Part shown: one piece after another, positions 1 to 45,236 of the stretch
Layout: each line of letters begins with the position of its first letter
Position numbering within the stretch: position 1 is the stretch's first letter
IMG/VR virus record: IMGVR_UViG_3300046543_000401
Coordinates: 1-45,236 of that record
From: a virus
Direction: 5' to 3' (one strand)
Length of the DNA: 45,236 nucleotides
The notes under the pieces: model-generated
Databases searched by the model: none
What the model was told of the DNA's origin: nothing
Seen by the model: only the letters and a program-made list of their open reading frames with translations
Program-made: the position numbers and the translations under genes

Positions 1-127
1 TCCATCTCCTCCATCCTACGTCCCGTCATGCTCGGCTTTGCTGAGATCTAGCGGAGAATATTTTTGCTCTGCGGCCTGTCGCCGCAGTTCCTCCCACAGC
101 GCTGGGGCGTCCTTGCCCTCCGCTTGG
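1..127. repeat. Terminal direct repeat, left copy (circular closure)
   Basis: Bases 1-127 are identical to 45110-45236. The gene ending at 16 and the gene starting at 45123 adjoin only when the ends are joined, so the molecule is circular or circularly permuted. A length of exactly 127 matches a common maximum assembler k-mer, which makes an assembly overlap likelier than cohesive or terminally redundant phage ends. Confidence 0.95.
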
Positions 128-6753: not shown

Positions 6754-7571
6754 AGGAAACTCGCGGCGGTGTTGACCAGATCGGACGCGGCATAGACCGC
6801 CGTGCGCGCCGTCGTGGCGGCTGCTAGGGCTGTCTGGACGGTCGCGGTCACCGGTTGGAGGGTTGAGCGGCTCCCGGTATCGAACCGCCCGAAGTAGCCC
6901 TGTAGCCCCCGCACGCTGTTGAATATGCGCGAGGCGTCACCGACGGCGGTTTGCGCAATCGCGGTGAACTGCCCCACGCCATCGGCGACGGCGCCCGCCA
7001 CGTTGCCGAGGCCGCCGAGCGTCGCCCCCAGGTCAGATGCCGAGGCGAGGTTGAGGCCGGCGACCGCAGCGCCGACGTTCTGCAAGGTCGCCGTGAGCGA
7101 GGACGGGAATTGCACATCCCCGGCCAGGATGAATGAGAACTGCACCTCGATGTAGCGCCCGCGCTCGCGGCGGTCGGTGGTCTGGAACTCCAGCAGCACG
7201 CACTGGATCGCGCCGAGCGTGGGATGCACCAGCGTGCCGGGCCCAGGCTGTTCGCAGGCGGCGACCATCGCGTCGCGCTGCTGATAGACGTCATCGCCGG
7301 TCAGATAGGCCTGGATCGAGAACCGCCGCGGCAGCTTGCCAAGGTCCTCCGCCCAGGCGGTGTCGCGGTAGGGGTATTCATGGATCGCGACGCGCCGGCC
7401 GGCGGCGGTGTCTCCGGCATCGAGGACGAAGCCCACACCGCGCCAGGAACCCGGTTGCAGTTGCTGCGCCCACGAGCCGGCGGACCATGACGCGCCCGAG
7501 CTGTCCGGTTGCTGCGATCCGCTGAAGCTCTGCCCCAGGCGGGCAATGTCGGTGACGGTGCTGCCGCTCAT
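6750..7571 (-). CDS. DNA circularisation protein N-terminal domain (Mu N-like, gp43)
   Basis: A 273-residue protein with a DNA_circ_N type domain at residues about 35-150: SWRGVGFVLDAGDTAAGRR, HEYPYRDTAWAEDLGKLPRR, then the AYLTGDDVYQQRD and TLVHPTLG motifs. A Gly/Ala linker follows. Mu N is a tail/baseplate component despite its name. Family members usually carry both domains in one chain of about 450 residues; here the second half is the next gene (6187-6753). Start ATG 7571, overlapping the tape measure stop. Confidence 0.85.
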   Translation of the reverse strand: MSGSTVTDIARLGQSFSGSQQPDSSGASWSAGSWAQQLQPGSWRGVGFVLDAGDTAAGRRVAIHEYPYRDTAWAEDLGKLPRRFSIQAYLTGDDVYQQRDAMVAACEQPGPGTLVHPTLGAIQCVLLEFQTTDRRERGRYIEVQFSFILAGDVQFPSSLTATLQNVGAAVAGLNLASASDLGATLGGLGNVAGAVADGVGQFTAIAQTAVGDASRIFNSVRGLQGYFGRFDTGSRSTLQPVTATVQTALAAATTARTAVYAASDLVNTAASFL

Positions 7572-9754
7572 ATGTTGGCCATGTCCTGGTGCTCGACGCG
7601 CACGGGCGCGACGTTGACCGAGCCGGTGCCGGTCGCGGTGACGGCGCTGTTTGGTGGCGCGTTCTTGTGGGTGATGTCCACGTTGACCGAGCCGTTGACC
7701 GGCGCTTGTCCCGGCACGGTCACGGACGGCGCAGCGGCGACGGCCGGCGCGGCCGGAACGGCTGGCGTCGCCGTGCGGGCGGCGATCTGTGCGCGCGTCT
7801 TTTGCAACGCCTCTGACATTTCCGCCGCGCTGATCGAGGCTTTGTTGTTGCCCTGGCCAGCATAGTAACTCTGGCCTGTCCTGGGATCGGCGACGGAGGC
7901 CCATTCCTGCGCCGCCGCGAGCTGTGCCGCCGCAAGGTCGTTGCTCTTGCCGCTGACATAATCGCGGATCGCCGGTCGTTTCTCACCCGCGAGATATTCG
8001 CCGAAGATGCGATCCTGCATCGCGCGGTCGAATTTTTCGTCACCCTTGAGGCCCATCGAGGCGACCGCGCTTTTGAGCGTCGAACCGATGATTTGATAGC
8101 GGCCGGCGGCATTGTATTTTTGCGCTGCCTGATCGGCCATCACCTGGGCGACGGTCTTGTTCTCCAGGTCCTCGGTTCCGGCGGCGTATCCGCCAGCCGC
8201 GCCCCGGTTGACCGAGCTATAATCGCCCTCGCCCCGCGAGATGAGGCTCCCGAGCGGTGTTGCGGCGAGGCCCCCTTGTTGCTGGATTTCGGGCGGTCCG
8301 TTCTTGGCGCGGTTCCACAGCCAGCCCAGCCCGCGTTCAAGCCAGCCGCCGGCAGGCGCCCCCGGCGCGGTCGAGGCCTTCGCGTTGGCGTCCGGCAAGT
8401 GCGTAGGCGAAAAGCCGGTGTTCGGGTCCGCACCGAGCCGGCGGCGCATTTCCACCTCCGGGATGTCCTCGCCGGTCTTGGGATTGACCCAGTGGGGTAT
8501 CTTGTCGAACGGGTTCCACGTGGAGCCGCCTCGCTTCTCAAAGCCCTGCTTCCTGGCCTCGGACTCTTCCACGCCCTTGATCGCCGCATCGACCGCTGGC
8601 GTGGCGATCAGCGCGAGGCCGGCGAGGATCGGGGCAAGCGCGGCGCTCAGTGGCGCGAGGGCAGCAACCACCGCCGCAATGTTGGCGATGATGCCGACGC
8701 CCCATCCCACGGCGAACAGCGTCACGATGGCACCGGCCGCTTTCAGGATCGTGTCGAGGTGGGTCACCACCCATTTCAGCGACTCAATGAACTTGTTAAC
8801 CCCGGCCTCGACATCATCCCACTTGATGCCACCAAGCCATGCGGCGAAGCGCTGCGACAGATCGTCAATCGCCTTGACGATATCGGGTGTGTGCTTTTCC
8901 ACGAACTCGGAAAGGCGGTTGAGCAGCGGGGCGAAGTCGCGCGCGAGCACCACCGAGATTTGCTGGCCGAGATGATCGAACGCGACGCCAGCGCGGCCCT
9001 GCGCCTCGGTGAACAGTTGCAGGCTGCGCTTCTGTTCGTCGGTCAGTTCGGTATAGCGGCCGGCATCGGCAAACGCCGCCAGGAAGCCTTGGTGCGACTG
9101 GCGGAACGTCTCGACCAGCTTGTTACCCTCGGCGCCCAACAGTGCGGTCGCGGCGCGCGAGCGGTTCATCGGATCGGGCAGCGCGGCAATCTTCTGGATC
9201 AATTCCGGCATGAGGTCGGCGGCGTTGCGGATTTGCCCGTTTGCGTCCCGCAGGTTGACGCCGAGATAGTTCGCCATCTGACCGACTTCGGCGAAGCTGC
9301 CACGACCGATGGCGAAGTCTGCCAGATTGGTGTGCAGCGCTTTCAAGCTGCCGGTCATGTCGCTGGCGTTGCCACCCGCGAGCCGCGTCGCATCCTGGAA
9401 CTGCTGAAGCTGTTGCGTCGTAATGCCGATGTCGTCGGCGTTCTGCACGAGTTGGTGCGACCAGTCGGCATAGCTGTTCACCAGCTTGACCATGCCGGCG
9501 ATCGAGGCGGCGCCGGTAATCGCACCCATGACGGGGACGATCTGCGACAGCGTGCGGAATACGCCCGCCGCTGTCTTGCCGATCCACTCGAAGCCCTGCG
9601 CTACCTTGCGCAGTCCTGACACATCGACGAAGCGGGAGACCGAGCGCGACATGCGCTCCATCGGCGCGCGCATCGCGGTGATGCGCTTGTTGATCGCGTC
9701 AATCTGCTTGGTCGCATTATCGGTGACAGAATAACTGACCGAGTAACCGGCCAT
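7568..9754 (-). CDS. Tape measure protein with C-terminal lysozyme-like domain
   Basis: A 728-residue tail length determinant. Residues about 1-340 are helical and resemble Mu gp42 (TKQIDAINKRI, NADDIGITTQQLQQFQDA). Residues about 345-395 form a long hydrophobic stretch likely to insert in the host membrane. From about residue 505 there is a lambda-R-like muramidase region: SRGEGDYSSVN with a candidate catalytic Glu, then NAAGRYQIIGSTLKSA. This would thin peptidoglycan during DNA entry. Codons for residues about 322-332 (8760-8791) are the homologue of CRISPR spacer 1. The gene is preceded by an HNH endonuclease gene. Confidence 0.92.
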   Translation of the reverse strand: MAGYSVSYSVTDNATKQIDAINKRITAMRAPMERMSRSVSRFVDVSGLRKVAQGFEWIGKTAAGVFRTLSQIVPVMGAITGAASIAGMVKLVNSYADWSHQLVQNADDIGITTQQLQQFQDATRLAGGNASDMTGSLKALHTNLADFAIGRGSFAEVGQMANYLGVNLRDANGQIRNAADLMPELIQKIAALPDPMNRSRAATALLGAEGNKLVETFRQSHQGFLAAFADAGRYTELTDEQKRSLQLFTEAQGRAGVAFDHLGQQISVVLARDFAPLLNRLSEFVEKHTPDIVKAIDDLSQRFAAWLGGIKWDDVEAGVNKFIESLKWVVTHLDTILKAAGAIVTLFAVGWGVGIIANIAAVVAALAPLSAALAPILAGLALIATPAVDAAIKGVEESEARKQGFEKRGGSTWNPFDKIPHWVNPKTGEDIPEVEMRRRLGADPNTGFSPTHLPDANAKASTAPGAPAGGWLERGLGWLWNRAKNGPPEIQQQGGLAATPLGSLISRGEGDYSSVNRGAAGGYAAGTEDLENKTVAQVMADQAAQKYNAAGRYQIIGSTLKSAVASMGLKGDEKFDRAMQDRIFGEYLAGEKRPAIRDYVSGKSNDLAAAQLAAAQEWASVADPRTGQSYYAGQGNNKASISAAEMSEALQKTRAQIAARTATPAVPAAPAVAAAPSVTVPGQAPVNGSVNVDITHKNAPPNSAVTATGTGSVNVAPVRVEHQDMANI
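8760..8791 (-). other. Imperfect protospacer matching CRISPR spacer 1
   Basis: Read on the minus (coding) strand, these 32 bases match spacer 1 (42855-42886) at 24 of 32 positions. They encode FIESLKWVVT against FIESLKWVIT in the spacer. The three bases just 5' on the same strand (8792-8794) are AAG, the canonical type I-E PAM. Mismatches are at spacer positions 6, 10, 11, 12, 15, 18, 25 and 27, mostly silent codon changes. Positions 1-5 and 7-9 match. Confidence 0.85.
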
Positions 9755-18762: not shown

Positions 18763-19268
18763 GGCGCCTTGGTCTCTTTCCAGGTCAACGCGTTTTCCAG
18801 CGCCTTGCGCACGCGGCGGTTCAGCTCGGGTTCCTCTTGCGTCATGACGCGATCGAGGAAGGGACGCGGTTCCATCTCGCGGCGCTGACCGCGTGCCTTA
18901 GCGCGGGCCTTGCGCACGGGCGCCGACGCCTTGCGGTGGTCGTGGCCCCTACCGCGCGCACCGCCAAAGGCCCCGACTTCCAGCGGCGTCGCGTATTTTG
19001 CGCGGGCGCGCACTGCGAACCCTTCGCCGGTCTTGAATGGATAGGTCTTGAGCGAGGACCGGAGATCGCCCGAGAGGCGAGTCGGTGGCTGGCCCGGCGC
19101 CGATGCGCGGTGGCTGCCGTATTGCCGACCGCTGCCCTGGCTCTGATTGATCAGGCGCCCAGTCTTGTTCTTGATATCATTGCCGGCGGCGCGCATCAGC
19201 TTTCGCAGCTCGCGCTTGTCGAGCGCGACGGTGCCCCAATGCGTGACGGTCAGCTTGAGGTCGCTCAC
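18759..19268 (-). CDS. HK97 gp10-like neck / tail completion protein
   Basis: A 169-residue basic protein of the HK97 gp10 type. ELRKLMRAAGNDIKNKTGRL is followed by PTRLSGDLRSSLKTYPFK (the family's pattern of Gly-x-L-x-x-S), a KYATPLEVGA motif and a closing RPFLDRVMTQEEPELNRRV helix. It sits between the head-tail joining and terminator genes, as in HK97-like heads. Confidence 0.78.
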   Translation of the reverse strand: MSDLKLTVTHWGTVALDKRELRKLMRAAGNDIKNKTGRLINQSQGSGRQYGSHRASAPGQPPTRLSGDLRSSLKTYPFKTGEGFAVRARAKYATPLEVGAFGGARGRGHDHRKASAPVRKARAKARGQRREMEPRPFLDRVMTQEEPELNRRVRKALENALTWKETKAP

Positions 19269-33013: not shown

Positions 33014-33306
33014 GGCGCCGCCTCGGCGGGAATTGCGGGGGGCGGATTCGAACCGCCGACCTTCAGCTTATGAGGCTGACGAGCTACCGGACTGCTCCAC
33101 CGCCGCATCACGCACTTCAAACACCGACCAACGACCGGCTGCTCGCGCTTCAGCAGAACCACCTCGCGCACCTCGACCGAACCGGGATTGAAGCACATGG
33201 GCTGATCACTGCCGCACGCACAGCGCAGGCTGGCCAATTGCCCGAGCCAGGCACGGAACGCCTCGACTTCGGCGCGATCGGAAGCAGTGACGCGGGGGCG
33301 CTTCAT
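33010..33306 (-). CDS. Small Cys-containing protein whose 3' end overlaps a tRNA gene
   Basis: A 98-residue reading from ATG 33306. The first part (TASDRAEVEAFRAWLGQLAS, CACGSDQPMCFN, VGRCLKCVMRRW) has a CxC and a CxxC, likely zinc-binding. From about residue 67 the same bases form a tRNA gene on the same strand, and the translation there (VGGSNPPPA) is the usual by-product of a tRNA T-arm. The stop still makes an ATGA overlap with the next gene, so the reading may be genuine to its end. Confidence 0.5.
   Translation of the reverse strand: MKRPRVTASDRAEVEAFRAWLGQLASLRCACGSDQPMCFNPGSVEVREVVLLKREQPVVGRCLKCVMRRWSSPVARQPHKLKVGGSNPPPAIPAEAAP
33033..33107 (-). tRNA. tRNA-Met (CAT anticodon), slightly irregular
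   Basis: Folding on the minus strand gives D arm GAGC/GCTC with loop AGTCCGGTA, anticodon arm TCAGC-CTCATAA-GCTGA, variable AGGTC and T arm GGCGG-TTCGAAT-CCGCC. The acceptor TGCGGGG pairs fully with CCCCGCA if one extra C in the 5' strand is bulged; discriminator A, no encoded CCA. The stem lacks the three G:C pairs of initiator tRNA, so it is elongator-like or Ile2-like. The bulge may mark a decaying gene. Confidence 0.8.
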
Positions 33307-40259: not shown

Positions 40260-40483
40260 TGTCCGCCATCACCGAGATCCGCGTGGACTTTGCCAGGACG
40301 TTCGTACCGCCGGGGGGTGATCGATATCAGCCGCTCAAGATCGCCGCCGGCCTGACGGTTGCCGTCGAGCCCGGCGAAGACGTGGAGGCGGTGAAGCGCA
40401 CGGTGCAGATCGAGCTGCGCCAGATCATCGAGGAGACCTATCGCTCGCAGGTCAGACCGAAGCGCGAGGAGGCAGCGGCATGA
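40259..40483 (+). CDS. Small hypothetical protein upstream of ERF
   Basis: A 74-residue protein: TEIRVDFARTFVPPGGDRYQ, LKIAAGLTVAVEPGEDVEAV then a helix ending in RQIIEETYRS. TGATG and ATGA overlaps place it in the recombination operon. No known family. Confidence 0.6.
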   Translation: MSAITEIRVDFARTFVPPGGDRYQPLKIAAGLTVAVEPGEDVEAVKRTVQIELRQIIEETYRSQVRPKREEAAA

Positions 40484-41289
40484 ACGAGATCAGCACCGTC
40501 ACCGCATCCAACCTCCCCGCGCTGCCGGTCGAGCGCGTCCTGCAGGCCGTCATCGCCGCCGCGAGCGACCCGGCCGTCGACGTCGCCAAGATGCGCGAGC
40601 TGCTCGGGCTTCAGAAGGAACTCATGGCCATGCAGGCCGAGCAGCAATTCAACGAAGCGTTCCACCGACTGCAACTCGAAATGCCGCGCATCAAGAAAGA
40701 CGGCGCCGTCGAATACAAGGGCAAGGAAGCCTTCAAGTTCGCGACCTGGGAGGCGATCGATACGGTCATTCGCCCGATCCTGCAGCGCGAGGGGTTCAGC
40801 CTTTCGTTCGATAGCGCCCAGCGCCAGGGCGAGGGTGGGGGCATCGTGGTGACGGGCAAGCTATCGCACACCGGCGGCGCCCATCGCACGGCGTCGATCC
40901 CGGTTCCGCTCGATACGTCGGGAGGGAAGAACGCGATCCAAGGCTACGGCAGCGCCATGAGCTATGGGCGTCGCTACACGGCCACAGCATTGTTGAACAT
41001 CGTCACCGAGGGCGAGGATGATTCAGGCGTCAGGGGCGGCACCAAGTTCATCGATGAAGTGCGCCTCGCGCAGATCACGTCGCTGATCGTTGAGACGAAG
41101 ACGGATCGCAACCGGCTCATGCAACACTACCAGATAACCGAGTTGCACAACCTTACGGCGGAGCAAGAGCCGCATCTGATGAAGGTGCTGCTTGGTAAGT
41201 TGCCGCCCCATCGCCGGACCGCGTGGGATGCAGCGCTACGCGATGGAACGATCGCCACCATGGACGACTTTCCCGGAGATCGCCCGTGA
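40480..41289 (+). CDS. erf: ERF-family single-strand annealing recombinase
   Basis: A 269-residue protein. Core ERF motifs: MQAEQQFNEAFHRLQLEMPR, IKKDGAVEYKGKEAFKFATW, IDTVIRPILQREGFSLSFDS and the QGYGSAMSYGRRYTATALLN motif with G-S-A-x-S-Y-x-R-R-Y. It anneals complementary single strands during phage recombination, probably with the YqaJ exonuclease encoded next (GTGA overlap). Confidence 0.92.
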   Translation: MNEISTVTASNLPALPVERVLQAVIAAASDPAVDVAKMRELLGLQKELMAMQAEQQFNEAFHRLQLEMPRIKKDGAVEYKGKEAFKFATWEAIDTVIRPILQREGFSLSFDSAQRQGEGGGIVVTGKLSHTGGAHRTASIPVPLDTSGGKNAIQGYGSAMSYGRRYTATALLNIVTEGEDDSGVRGGTKFIDEVRLAQITSLIVETKTDRNRLMQHYQITELHNLTAEQEPHLMKVLLGKLPPHRRTAWDAALRDGTIATMDDFPGDRP

Positions 41290-42041
41290 AAATATGGTGG
41301 GACGTGGATCAAGGCTCGGTGGAGTGGCACAAGCTGCGGCGAGGGATCCCTACCGCATCGGAGGCGCACCGCATCATCCAGCCTCAGAAGCTGAAGAGAT
41401 CCGAGAGCCGCAAGAAATACCTCTGCGAACTACTGGCGTCCCGCCTGAAGAACTGGCAGCGGAATTCGATCGATCACCTGGAGCATGTCGCCCGCGGCAA
41501 AGAACACGAGCCTGACGCCGTGTTCGCCTTTGAGGAAACAAACAAGGTCGAGACGAAAAAGGTCGGCTTCATCACGGTCGATAGCGGACGCTTCGGCGCA
41601 AGCCCGGATCGCTTCATCATTGAGGGCATGGTCCCACTGGAGATCAAGTGCCCTTCCGAGGTGCAGTTGATGGAGTACCAGTTCTTCGGCCTGGGCGGCG
41701 ACTATCGCGCGCAGGTGCAGACACAGATCTGGGCTGCGGAAGCTGACCATGGCGTGTTCAACGCCTACAACGTCGGCGTGCCGCGGGACTTCACGCTGCG
41801 CACTGACCGCGACGATGCATTCCTCCGGGAATGGCGCCCCGTCCTGGACGAGTTCTGTGATGACCTCGACCAGATGGAGGCGACGGCGCGCACCTGGGGC
41901 ATCTGGGAAGAATACCAGTGGCGCACGGCGCACGATCGAGAGCTTGGCATCAGGCGGGATCCGCTGACCACCGCGGAGGAGATGGCGGCGGTGATCGAGC
42001 GCGAGACCCGGCCGGGCGACCTGTACCGGATGGGCGCGTGA
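41286..42041 (+). CDS. YqaJ/lambda-type exonuclease
   Basis: A 251-residue protein starting at GTG 41286, overlapping the ERF stop. The nuclease core shows SVEWHKLRRGIPTASEAHRI, GRFGASPDRFI (Asp108) and VPLEIKCPSEVQLMEY (Glu119, Lys121), the D...ExK catalytic set. It resects double-strand ends to give ERF its substrate, a Red-like system. A longer upstream reading would only overlap ERF. Confidence 0.9.
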   Translation: MKIWWDVDQGSVEWHKLRRGIPTASEAHRIIQPQKLKRSESRKKYLCELLASRLKNWQRNSIDHLEHVARGKEHEPDAVFAFEETNKVETKKVGFITVDSGRFGASPDRFIIEGMVPLEIKCPSEVQLMEYQFFGLGGDYRAQVQTQIWAAEADHGVFNAYNVGVPRDFTLRTDRDDAFLREWRPVLDEFCDDLDQMEATARTWGIWEEYQWRTAHDRELGIRRDPLTTAEEMAAVIERETRPGDLYRMGA

Positions 42042-42286
42042 TGCCTCGGCGCTTGAGGGACCTCGAGATGGAGATGCACGACAGCCTCGAGAACGTCACC
42101 CTGGCTGTGGGCCGGATGCGCGATAGCAATGACAGAATGCGGACCGTCCTACTCGCCGCTGCGGAGCAGTTCGAGCGCTACGCGGAGCATCATTTGGCGA
42201 AGCAGCCGTCCGACCTCGAGAAGGCCGAGGCCAACGTCGAATGGGCGGCGCGATGCCGAGAGGCGGCGACGGCATCCGATGCCTGA
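42041..42286 (+). CDS. Small helical hypothetical protein
   Basis: An 81-residue, entirely helical protein (LRDLEMEMHDSLENVTLAVG; VLLAAAEQFERYAEHHLAKQ). TGATG overlap with the exonuclease. No family recognised; possible coiled-coil dimer. Confidence 0.5.
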   Translation: MPRRLRDLEMEMHDSLENVTLAVGRMRDSNDRMRTVLLAAAEQFERYAEHHLAKQPSDLEKAEANVEWAARCREAATASDA

Positions 42287-42767
42287 TCTCTTCTGGTCCG
42301 ACGACTTCGACATGGACCTCCCCAAGATATTCCCCGAGGCGCGCGAGATCATGGGGCCGCTGGGCGACGTCGAGTTGTTCACCAACGGCCACACGATGCA
42401 CGGCAGGCTGAACCATCCGAACGTGTGGAACAGCCACAACACGATGCTGTCGTTCTTCGGCTTCACCGGTCCGGCGCGGCCGAGCGTCTATCACACCAGC
42501 AGTGAGCTCGTGTCCTGCACTGCGTGGGAGGCTTTCCGCGACGCGTGGTCGCACAGCTACCTAATCCAGATCGAGAAGCGGCCGATCTGGGACACGTTTA
42601 AGCTGGCTCGTCCGTTCGAAATCATCATGTGGAATATTCGCGGATGGGACGAGAAGCTGGAAAGGCCGAACGATGTGAGCAAAGCACGGCGACTGGCATT
42701 GGCGTCATACCGTGCTGGGATTGCTGCGCTGCGATCGGTCTGCGCTGAGTTCGGGCGGCCGACGTGA
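42279..42767 (+). CDS. Hypothetical protein upstream of the CRISPR array
   Basis: A 162-residue soluble protein: FWSDDFDMDLPKIFPEAREI, FTNGHTMHGRLNHPNVWNSH, NTMLSFFGFTGPARPSVYHT and a helical end. Rich in His/Trp/Asn. No family recognised. Its stop overlaps the start of the array-interrupted gene, and both open with MPDLF. Confidence 0.6.
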   Translation: MPDLFWSDDFDMDLPKIFPEAREIMGPLGDVELFTNGHTMHGRLNHPNVWNSHNTMLSFFGFTGPARPSVYHTSSELVSCTAWEAFRDAWSHSYLIQIEKRPIWDTFKLARPFEIIMWNIRGWDEKLERPNDVSKARRLALASYRAGIAALRSVCAEFGRPT

Positions 42768-43021
42768 TGCCTGACCTGTTCCCCGTCACCCTGGATGAGA
42801 TGGTCCGCCGGTCGCCGTATATACGAAGCGTGTTCCCCGCGCGTGCGGGATCCGTTCATCGAGAGCCTCAAGTGGGTGATCACCCAGTGTTCCCCGCGCG
42901 TGCGGGGATGATCCGGTCCGCGAGGTGGAACGGGAAATCACGCTTCGGAGTTCCCCGCGCGTGCGGGGATGAACCGGAGGCGGTCGCCCGCGAGCTGCAG
43001 GACCGCGCCCGTGGCCGCTGA
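42767..43021 (+). pseudogene. Small phage gene interrupted by the CRISPR array
   Basis: ATG 42767 opens with 14 sensible codons (MPDLFPVTLDEMVR), and 14 sensible codons close it after the last repeat (EAVARELQDRARGR, 42977-43018). Between lie 168 bases of foreign array sequence. From memory, a family of about 60-residue phage proteins has this start and this end joined by an EREI-x-LR-x-R-V-Y helix. The reading stays open because the insert is a multiple of three. Confidence 0.65.
42830..42976 (+). CRISPR. Phage-borne type I-E mini-CRISPR array: 3 repeats, 2 spacers
   Basis: Repeats: R1 42830-42854 (25 bp, a 4-base deletion), R2 42887-42915 and R3 42948-42976 (29 bp each). Consensus starts G(T/A)GTTCCCCGCGCG and ends TGCGGGGATGAACCG, with the CCCCGC/GCGGGG hairpin of type I-E. 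Spacers 42855-42886 and 42916-42947 are exactly 32 bp. No cas genes are present, so it must borrow host Cascade/Cas3. Spacer 1 resembles a tape measure gene; spacer 2 resembles the interrupted gene. There is no AT-rich leader; a TATATA at 42818-42823 could be a -10. Confidence 0.95.
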
Positions 43022-43352
43022 GCCACGCTGGCTCGATCGTGCCTCCGCAGCCGCTTACGTCTGCATGTCCGAAGCTGCCTTCTGTCGCCGTGTGACGCAG
43101 GGCAAGTTCCCGAAACCCCGACTCGAGGCCGGGGAGCAGTCCCCGCGGTGGGACCGCCTGGCGCTTGACGCCGCCTTCGGCGCCGGCGCGGACTCTACTG
43201 ACGCCCGAATCGCATTCCAGGGGTTGGCAGATGAAATCGCGGCCAAAGGGACGAAAGGCGCTCAGGATCGTGCGTCGCATCCAAGCCGACGGCACGCTCA
43301 AAGAGTACCGCTACGCCCCATACAAGGCCAAGCCCCGCGTCCAGCCGACTGA
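43011..43352 (+). CDS. Excisionase / AlpA-like DNA-binding protein
   Basis: A 113-residue protein from GTG 43011 with a MerR/AlpA-type helix-turn-helix: RWLDRASAAAYVCMSEAAFC, RRVTQGKFPKPRLEAGEQSP then RWDRLALDAAF. It lies directly before, and overlapping by 122 bases, the integrase gene, the usual place of a recombination directionality factor. An in-frame ATG at 42969 lies inside CRISPR repeat 3 and has no proper ribosome site, so GTG is preferred. Confidence 0.7.
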   Translation: MAAEPRWLDRASAAAYVCMSEAAFCRRVTQGKFPKPRLEAGEQSPRWDRLALDAAFGAGADSTDARIAFQGLADEIAAKGTKGAQDRASHPSRRHAQRVPLRPIQGQAPRPAD

Positions 43353-44214
43353 CACGATTGACGCACTGCTCACTCAGTATCAGCGCAGTCCGGAATGGGA
43401 CGCATTAGCCGACAGGACCCGCGAGACCTATGGCCTTTACCAACGTCAGCTCACGCGCGTGGGACAGGTCAGGGTCGCCGAGGTCCGCCGTCGCGATATC
43501 CTCGCGCTCCGGGACGCTATCGCCAAAACGAGCGGCCCTGGTGCCGCACAGGTATTCATTCGAGCGGCATCGGTTCTGTTTAAGTGGGCGGTGGGGCGGG
43601 AATGGATCGAACACAGCCCCGTCACGCAGATACCTGCCTTGAAAGGGGGCGAGCTCCGCGCCTGGACGGCCCAGGAAGCCGACGCAGCCGAGGCCGGCCT
43701 ACCGGAACATCTTCGCCGCGTCGTCGTCCTGGCGCGCTACACGGGCCAGCGCAGGGGCGATCTATGCGCTATGACGTGGGCGCAGTTCGACGGGGAGGTG
43801 ATCACGCTCAAACAACAAAAGGCTGGCAAGGCCGCTGACCCGATCGTCATTCCCTGCGACCCGATCCTGCGGGCCGAACTCCTGGCATGGCGTAATCATC
43901 CTGTCGCCGCACTGCCGACACGGACGATCCTGGTCAACTCGTTTGGGCGTCCGTGGATCCCGAAGACTCTTTCGGAGAAGCTACCGGTCGCACTCGTGCG
44001 GCTCGGACTGCCACGAGAGCTGAACGTGCATGGTCTGCGCAAGCTTGCGGCTACCAGCCTTGCCAACGCCGGATGCAGTCCGCACCAGATCGCGGCCATC
44101 ACCGGTCATCGGACCCTGGCGATGGTCCAGCATTACACAAAAGCCGTGGATCAGCGCCGGCTAGCGACCGAAGCAATCGGGCGCCTACAAACTCGGGACA
44201 ACGGACAACGGTAG
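43231..44214 (+). CDS. int: Tyrosine integrase
   Basis: A 327-residue tyrosine recombinase from ATG 43231. The N-terminal SAM-like domain covers about residues 40-125 (WDALADRTRETYGLYQRQLT). The catalytic set is visible: Arg174 in YTGQRRGDL, a Lys in KQQKAGK, His267 and Arg270 in VHGLRKLAATSLAN, His293 in ITGHRTLAM and nucleophile Tyr302 in QHYTKAVDQ. It integrates and excises the prophage with the upstream excisionase. Confidence 0.95.
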   Translation: MKSRPKGRKALRIVRRIQADGTLKEYRYAPYKAKPRVQPTDTIDALLTQYQRSPEWDALADRTRETYGLYQRQLTRVGQVRVAEVRRRDILALRDAIAKTSGPGAAQVFIRAASVLFKWAVGREWIEHSPVTQIPALKGGELRAWTAQEADAAEAGLPEHLRRVVVLARYTGQRRGDLCAMTWAQFDGEVITLKQQKAGKAADPIVIPCDPILRAELLAWRNHPVAALPTRTILVNSFGRPWIPKTLSEKLPVALVRLGLPRELNVHGLRKLAATSLANAGCSPHQIAAITGHRTLAMVQHYTKAVDQRRLATEAIGRLQTRDNGQR

Positions 44215-44640: not shown

Positions 44641-45123
44641 CTAGGCCGCCCTCCAAACGAAGTCGCCCTTATCCTCAACGATCGCAGGTTCACTCTCGAC
44701 GCACAGGCACTCACGGCCGACCATCGGGTCTGCGACCGGCCGCCAGAAATTACGGACGCGCCCGCCGGGAACGTGATTGTCCTCGAGCGCTTCCTCGATG
44801 CCGAACTGCCGGAGCACCCACCGCGCCTCGTTCGACGTGCAGCGGCGGGTGCCGAGCGTGCGGTGTTGGCGGCTGATGCTGAGATGATACTCTGGTCCGT
44901 CGACCTTACCGTCATCGATGAACTCCACGGCGGACAGGACGGCCAGTGATGAGGCTTCGTGAAAGAAGGCCCGCACCGGGGCGCCCTTGTGTCTCACCAC
45001 CGGCAATCCGTCAGTGGGAACCTCGCGCCAGCCTTCCAGGCGTGGACGTTTCACCGCGATCAGGCTCAGAGTGCCGTCCGAGTAGGTGTCAGCCGTCGCT
45101 TGGGGAATATCCATCTCCTCCAT
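44641..45123 (-). CDS. DUF7694-like phage hypothetical protein
   Basis: A 160-residue protein: VDGPEYHLSISRQHRTLGTR, NEARWVLRQFGIEEALEDNH, VPGGRVRNFWRPVADPMVGR. This central block is widespread in alphaproteobacterial phages and is assigned to DUF7694 as I recall. Function unknown. ATG 45123 follows the TAG of the 16-252 gene by one base across the circle junction; ATGs at 45138 and 45114 are alternatives. Last gene of the leftward late operon. Confidence 0.65.
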   Translation of the reverse strand: MEEMDIPQATADTYSDGTLSLIAVKRPRLEGWREVPTDGLPVVRHKGAPVRAFFHEASSLAVLSAVEFIDDGKVDGPEYHLSISRQHRTLGTRRCTSNEARWVLRQFGIEEALEDNHVPGGRVRNFWRPVADPMVGRECLCVESEPAIVEDKGDFVWRAA

Positions 45124-45236
45124 CCTACGTCCCGTCATGCTCGGCTTTGCTGAGATCTAGCGGAGAATATTTTTGCTCTGCGGCCTGTCGCCGCAGTTCC
45201 TCCCACAGCGCTGGGGCGTCCTTGCCCTCCGCTTGG
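45110..45236. repeat. Terminal direct repeat, right copy
   Basis: Exact second copy of bases 1-127. One copy should be removed when the genome is circularised, leaving about 45,109 bp. It covers the start of the DUF7694-like gene and the 3' end of the small gene annotated at 16-252. Confidence 0.95.

Follow-up and report, generated by a model that had tools for sequence, protein, structure and literature searches.

Gene content and location of the array

The analysed stretch of DNA (hereafter the window; 45,236 nucleotides) comprises the virus record IMGVR_UViG_3300046543_000401 and encodes portal, capsid and terminase proteins, a contractile tail with a Mu-like baseplate, DnaB, RusA, Erf and YqaJ, as well as a tyrosine integrase. 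Based on this combination of structural, replication, recombination and integrase genes, the carrier is a temperate, contractile-tailed phage. Best matches were to a Komagataeibacter phage for the portal protein (among annotated phages) and to proteins from Azospirillum for the integrase (on plasmids), both of which fit a probable alphaproteobacterial host.

Three copies of a type I-E CRISPR repeat are located at 42830-42976 in crRNA-sense direction (Table 1), between the Erf/YqaJ genes and those of the excisionase-like protein and integrase, and inside gene B. This agrees with the first-pass annotation, which had placed the array within the recombination/integration operon and away from the genome edge. 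With phage genes on both sides and a contig that is circular by its exact terminal repeat, the possibility of host chromosome at a contig edge is ruled out. No host leader precedes the array, the upstream region being occupied by coding sequence of genes A and B. Three properties had escaped the earlier annotation: (i) the truncation of repeat R1, (ii) the location inside a targeted gene, and (iii) the protospacer-like appearance of both flanks.

Table 1. Coordinates of the array, its neighbouring genes and related sites in the window
Feature	Position	Strand	Description
Exact direct terminal repeat	1-127	.	Same sequence at 45110-45236; closes the contig into a circle at k=127
Own counterpart of S1 target, tape-measure gene	8760-8791	-	AAG PAM kept; 24/32 identical
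Erf-like annealing protein	40480-41289	+	Short-homology recombination pair with YqaJ
YqaJ exonuclease	41223-42041	+	Short-homology recombination pair with Erf
Gene A	42129-42767	+	212 aa; no family found; stop overlaps gene B start
Gene B, interrupted	42764-43021	+	85 aa; array inside; intact homologues in L052, L053, L008 and L035-L037
Putative S0	42798-42829	+	32 nt of gene B left of R1, ATG before; would continue gene B past the 27-nt deletion
Repeat R1	42830-42854	+	Truncated, 25 nt; 5' handle shortened
Spacer S1	42855-42886	+	32 nt; FIESLKWVIT, from the tape-measure protein of a relative
Repeat R2	42887-42915	+	29 nt; one base off cellular repeat (GATGATCCG)
Spacer S2	42916-42947	+	32 nt; VREVEREITL(R), the stretch absent from gene B after DEM; predicted PAM ATG
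Repeat R3	42948-42976	+	29 nt; one base off cellular repeat (GAGTTCC)
Putative S3	42977-43008	+	Gene B C-terminal coding DNA, starting exactly at R3 end
Gene C	43011-43352	+	Helix-turn-helix/excisionase-like; GTG overlaps gene B stop; scanned as ORF 42969-43349
Tyrosine integrase	43165-44214	+	

Architecture of the array

The array spans 147 nt with repeat spacings of 57 and 61 nt. A 21-nt repeat core occurs three times in the window at ≤3 mismatches, compared to 0.01 occurrences expected from shuffled sequences, so that repeats arising by chance and a plain inverted repeat are ruled out. Of the earlier description as three I-E repeats with hairpin, the copy number stands, but the first copy is incomplete: R1 corresponds to R2 minus GATG (4-nt deletion) and forms a weaker hairpin (-9.8 kcal/mol) than R2 and R3, which adopt the usual fold (-14.3 kcal/mol). 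Both spacers have exactly the 32 bp assigned to them before. The 3' end of S1 (42873-42886), directly before R2, consists of a perfect 14-nt palindrome (TGGGTGATCACCCA).

Absence of cas genes and cellular use of the repeat

No cas gene was matched among the 55 ORFs of the 45-kb window (PADLOC, all six families; Pfam, best 25 of 34), as the first-pass annotation had noted from the translations, and a complete type I-E CRISPR-Cas system is ruled out. The temperate phage carries a cas-less mini-array of the I-E type, and the earlier deduction that it could work only with the Cas proteins of a host is retained.

The cellular form of the repeat (GTGTTCCCCGCGCGTGCGGGGATGAACCG) was found by exact scanning of 84,980 genomes in an Azospirillaceae MAG, in Novosphingobium and in a Desulfobacterales MAG. 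All three carry cas6e (PF08798), and in each of them at least one cas6e is located ~1-2 kb before an array using the repeat. Hence cellular I-E arrays with this repeat exist in genomes with cas6e, on which the first-pass annotation had made its claim depend. None of 385 genomes of the class contained the T-variant repeat.

The repeat core was detected in one other contig out of 2.9 million viral contigs, L002 (IMGVR_UViG_3300025534_000213; 191 kb), which also has the exact repeat. Its nine-repeat I-E array (7366-7882 of the locus) has cas6e upstream and most likely represents cellular DNA filed in the viral collection. A second phage with the array, suggested earlier as a search among related prophages, was not encountered among the relatives compared, where the carrier remains a singleton. 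An element spreading in the phage group was likewise rejected, since the core is present besides only in L002 and gene B is intact in the two relatives having it. Further repeats of I-E-like type, found in annotated phages, all share <90 % identity, and at the DNA level the region has no close match in annotated phages and plasmids. The plasmid matches obtained probably concern ordinary I-E arrays in the matched part.

Spacer S1 and the tape-measure gene

S1 translates in frame 1 as FIESLKWVIT(H/Q). Scanning the 2.9 million viral contigs with a degenerate codon pattern yielded a single match, located in the homologous tape-measure gene of L038, a contig 86 % identical to the window across the tail genes, and directly preceded by an AAG PAM. 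Identity of the S1 segment with members of the group is at the protein level, with 25/32 and up to 28/32 nucleotides shared. No exact DNA target was found for S1 or S2. As judged from this agreement and that of S2 (see below), both spacers are shown to derive from close relatives of the carrier phage.

The carrier's own S1 site differs at eight of 32 positions (6, 10, 11, 12, 15, 18, 25 and 27), of which position 6 is not read by Cascade. Owing to these mismatches and the loss of the gene B target, the carrier is predicted to escape both spacers. Since the I-E seed is largely matched at the own site, self-priming is possible even without interference.

Searching for the host with spacers of arrays using the same repeat gave weak matches of 14-20 nt to the phage group, which were not used. 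One of these is a 19/20 partial match of spacer 10 in the Novosphingobium I-E array (L013) to L038 (2196-2215) and L040 (8310-8329), both within the tape-measure region and too weak for naming a host.

Spacer S2 and the interrupted gene B

The gene B ORF combines an N-terminus (MPDLFPVTLDEMV) and C-terminus (EAVARELQDRARGR, followed by the stop) with the array between them, the frame being open throughout. Uninterrupted homologues are present in two members of the phage group (L052, MSDLYPVTLEDMIAEARRELEMRRTVYARM..., and L053) and elsewhere in L008 and L035-L037; in the window the middle of the gene is absent and the array is in its place. Read after ...LDEM, S2 continues as VREVEREITL(R), agreeing with the family (AEMITEIEREIGLR, LDEMIKEAEREVALR). 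With S2 added, the family HMM score of the truncated N-terminus goes up from 8.3 to 24.2 bits, a value reached by none of 20,000 window pieces and none of 20,000 shuffles. At the protein level, at which S2 is related to the family, it encodes precisely the part of gene B that the interrupted copy lacks.

Translation of the 21 nt separating GTCCGC from R1 gives (L)RRSPYIRS, comparable to MRRTVYARM in L052. This tail increases the score further to 32.2, which is matched by 153 to 239 of 20,000 random tails (p ~0.01). The carrier's gene B therefore resembles an allele that has lost 27 nt in frame, including 26 of the 32 S2-target bases. Under (type III) CRISPR attack in the laboratory, phages are known to escape by in-frame deletions (PMC7515739).

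Both flanks of the array can be read as further protospacers with PAMs (putative S0 and S3), such that corresponding host spacers may have served as points of exchange. On the left, an ATG precedes R1 at a distance of exactly 32 nt. On the right, the piece following R3 scores as gene B C-terminus (equalled by 18 of 20,000 random pieces, p ~0.001), and most gene B homologues have a Met codon (ATG) directly ahead of it. Functional PAMs of type I-E include ATG and AAG. The four functional PAMs are discussed, on the other strand, in PMC3764190. The case for a recombination point is moderate for S0 and somewhat better for S3. For comparison of S0 and S3, no intact close allele of gene B was found among the viral contigs, which also contain no close counterpart of gene A or the integrase, and gene B is absent from 82 genomes of the order. 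Against annotated phages, the spacers gave weak matches only, all of them to S3.

Because of the 4-nt deletion in R1, the reading frame of gene B runs through the array without a stop, whereas a 29-nt R1 would lead to a stop at codon 39. By frame alone, such an opening has a chance of ~1 in 9 by our estimate. Given the overlapping starts and stops of genes A, B and C, an open gene B may keep translation coupled to the excisionase-like gene C.

Real array versus assembly join

The main challenge to the phage-borne nature of the array is an assembly chimera, in which the assembler would have crossed from the phage into a host-owned array at S0 and returned at S3, on the premise that spacers of this host array share ~33 nt with gene B at each of the two places. 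Several observations are in line with such a course: both insert ends resemble spacer/target matches (ATG 32 nt before R1; gene B from the end of R3), all spacers are directed against the carrier's phage group, as they would be in a host array in active use, and the array is absent from all relatives compared. The assembly itself points in the other direction. The last metaSPAdes step at JGI uses k=127, and identical ends of 127 nt are the hallmark of a circle that was closed in an assembly graph of this k. With this overlap the junctions of the array should be spanned by 127-mers, and an identity of 33 nt does not tangle the graph at this word length. A false join would need to persist from an early small-k stage and to outcompete a phage covered well enough to close. 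Given the k=127 closure, misassembly through 32-nt matches is unlikely. Moreover, two independent misjoins back into one and the same gene would be required, and the array leaves gene B in frame. Repeats are also nearly uniform in the cellular arrays examined, whereas all three phage repeats are altered. Overall, a chimeric origin is considered improbable.

Proposed origin and function

A real, leaderless I-E mini-array that the phage captured from a host array and uses together with host Cascade against its relatives is rather likely. The guides against close relatives and the position inside a targeted gene suggest an origin in a host fighting the carrier's phage family. Capture by recombination with the host array is probable because both flanks look like further protospacers, and S0 and S3 would then represent the scars of this event. 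Specifically, a host with an I-E array would have held several spacers against the family, and exchange at S0 and S3 with the identical gene B targets would have replaced the middle of gene B by R1-S1-R2-S2-R3, possibly mediated by the short-homology recombination system Erf/YqaJ of the carrier.

In the resulting phage, the array piece would be transcribed within the early/integration operon. A sigma-70-type promoter was not found in the operon, a scan that says little for the carrier's host. In a compatible I-E cell, Cas6e would cut the transcript and Cascade could be loaded with S2 from the two near-normal repeats. Use of S1 is less sure, as R1 is truncated with a short handle and R1-S1-R2 may be a poor unit. 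The guides would attack related phages in gene B (S2) and in the tape-measure gene (S1), with the carrier being spared by the loss of the former target and the mismatches in its own copy of the latter. The array thus probably provides superinfection exclusion, with transcription, processing, interference and the benefit to the phage all being predicted from its layout. Concerning the earlier designation as a weapon or immunity device of the phage, the spacers from close relatives look as those of a weapon should, while its effect is a prediction.

An extended course of events is conceivable, though we would not call it likely: the phage may have escaped from S2 by the 27-nt deletion in gene B, upon which the host added S0 across the deletion and the phage recombined at S0/S3 to employ the spacers on its relatives. 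A point against the capture reading in general is that the S0 target and its ATG PAM would be intact in the recombinant and could still be cut by the donor host, so that the carrier would need a different host to live in.

The same vulnerability to the donor host may speak for a real but idle scar, i.e. a remnant of CRISPR attack that is decaying and has done no more than disrupt gene B. Truncation of R1 with its shortened 5' handle, the alteration of each repeat and the lack of a detectable promoter-like site would also fit decay. However, R2-S2-R3 is complete as a unit and its hairpins are strong, both spacers are directed against relatives while the carrier escapes, and the orientation in the operon has the crRNA-sense strand read. 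An idle scar is thus regarded as unlikely. Titration of host Cas6e/Cas7e by the repeats without guided attack, as by the phage-borne, host-type, cas-less solitary repeat units of Racr anti-CRISPRs, would accord with the altered repeats and degenerate R1, and working I-E Racr candidates exist, but is very improbable, since the work on Racrs counts full repeats no more than 100 bp apart as arrays (PMC10651486) and the window holds three repeats 57-61 nt apart, two of them complete, with two spacers that are relative-derived rather than random.

Comparison with known phage-borne arrays

As far as described in PMC6858448, PMC7099407 and PMC8616872, mini-arrays of temperate phages lack a host leader and target relatives rather than the carrier. 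According to these accounts, recombination with host arrays is thought to be the route of gain, and superinfection exclusion has been proposed for virus-borne mini-arrays. The window array has the corresponding make-up, i.e. cellular-type repeats, two spacers, neither cas genes nor host leader, and spacers fitting relatives and not the carrier. With the leaderless mini-arrays of Faure et al. 2019 (as presented in the same three papers) it shares the low number of spacers (1-2), the lack of cas genes and leader, host-type repeats with a truncated copy, relative-targeting spacers and residence in a temperate phage. To this type, already known from such accounts, the present array adds one more. 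In the presented cases the targets are found in adjacent genes or elsewhere in relatives, whereas the window array is located inside its own target gene with two protospacer-like gene B flanks. Unusual here is this position within the target gene, together with the apparent recombination scars on both sides.

Targeting of close relatives is shared with the mini-arrays of the archaeal viruses SPV1 and SPV2 (Medvedeva et al. 2019, PMC6858448), for which targeting is mutual and exclusion has been proposed. The latter arrays possess a host-like leader and different repeat types, in contrast to the leaderless array of a phage with bacterial host. Phage DNA and host CRISPR DNA are also joined where spacer and target are identical in the staphylococcal spacer-target recombination system (2019 work, as cited in PMC8616872), which, as far as cited there, moves cas loci by transduction, whereas here a 147-nt piece resides in a complete phage genome.

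Host-array recombination has been proposed as a route to leaderless mini-arrays, and the window locus displays what look like the expected scars at both ends. It points to a path of capture via spacer-target identity and a phage-coded short-homology recombinase, which would explain mini-arrays in or next to targeted genes as well as the immunity of carriers to their own guides. Provided that the deletion-then-capture course applies, a CRISPR attack on a gene would turn that gene into the phage's own array. With this locus, the range of systems in which host CRISPR may serve phages in attacks on one another extends to type I-E and to a group of contractile-tailed phages whose host is probably alphaproteobacterial.

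Other features of the genome

Judged by Erf (69 % protein identity), contig L018 (IMGVR_UViG_3300046812_000348) is closely related but has a different integrase module; genes A and B were not found after its YqaJ gene. From this comparison, relatives appear to exchange the integrase end of the genome. PADLOC gave weak matches to capH and a control protein, which are probably phage regulators with HTH domains. ARAGORN predicted a tRNA-Gly (tcc; 18798-18890), which overlaps opposite-strand ORFs and may be spurious, and a tRNA-Met (cat) at 33033-33107.
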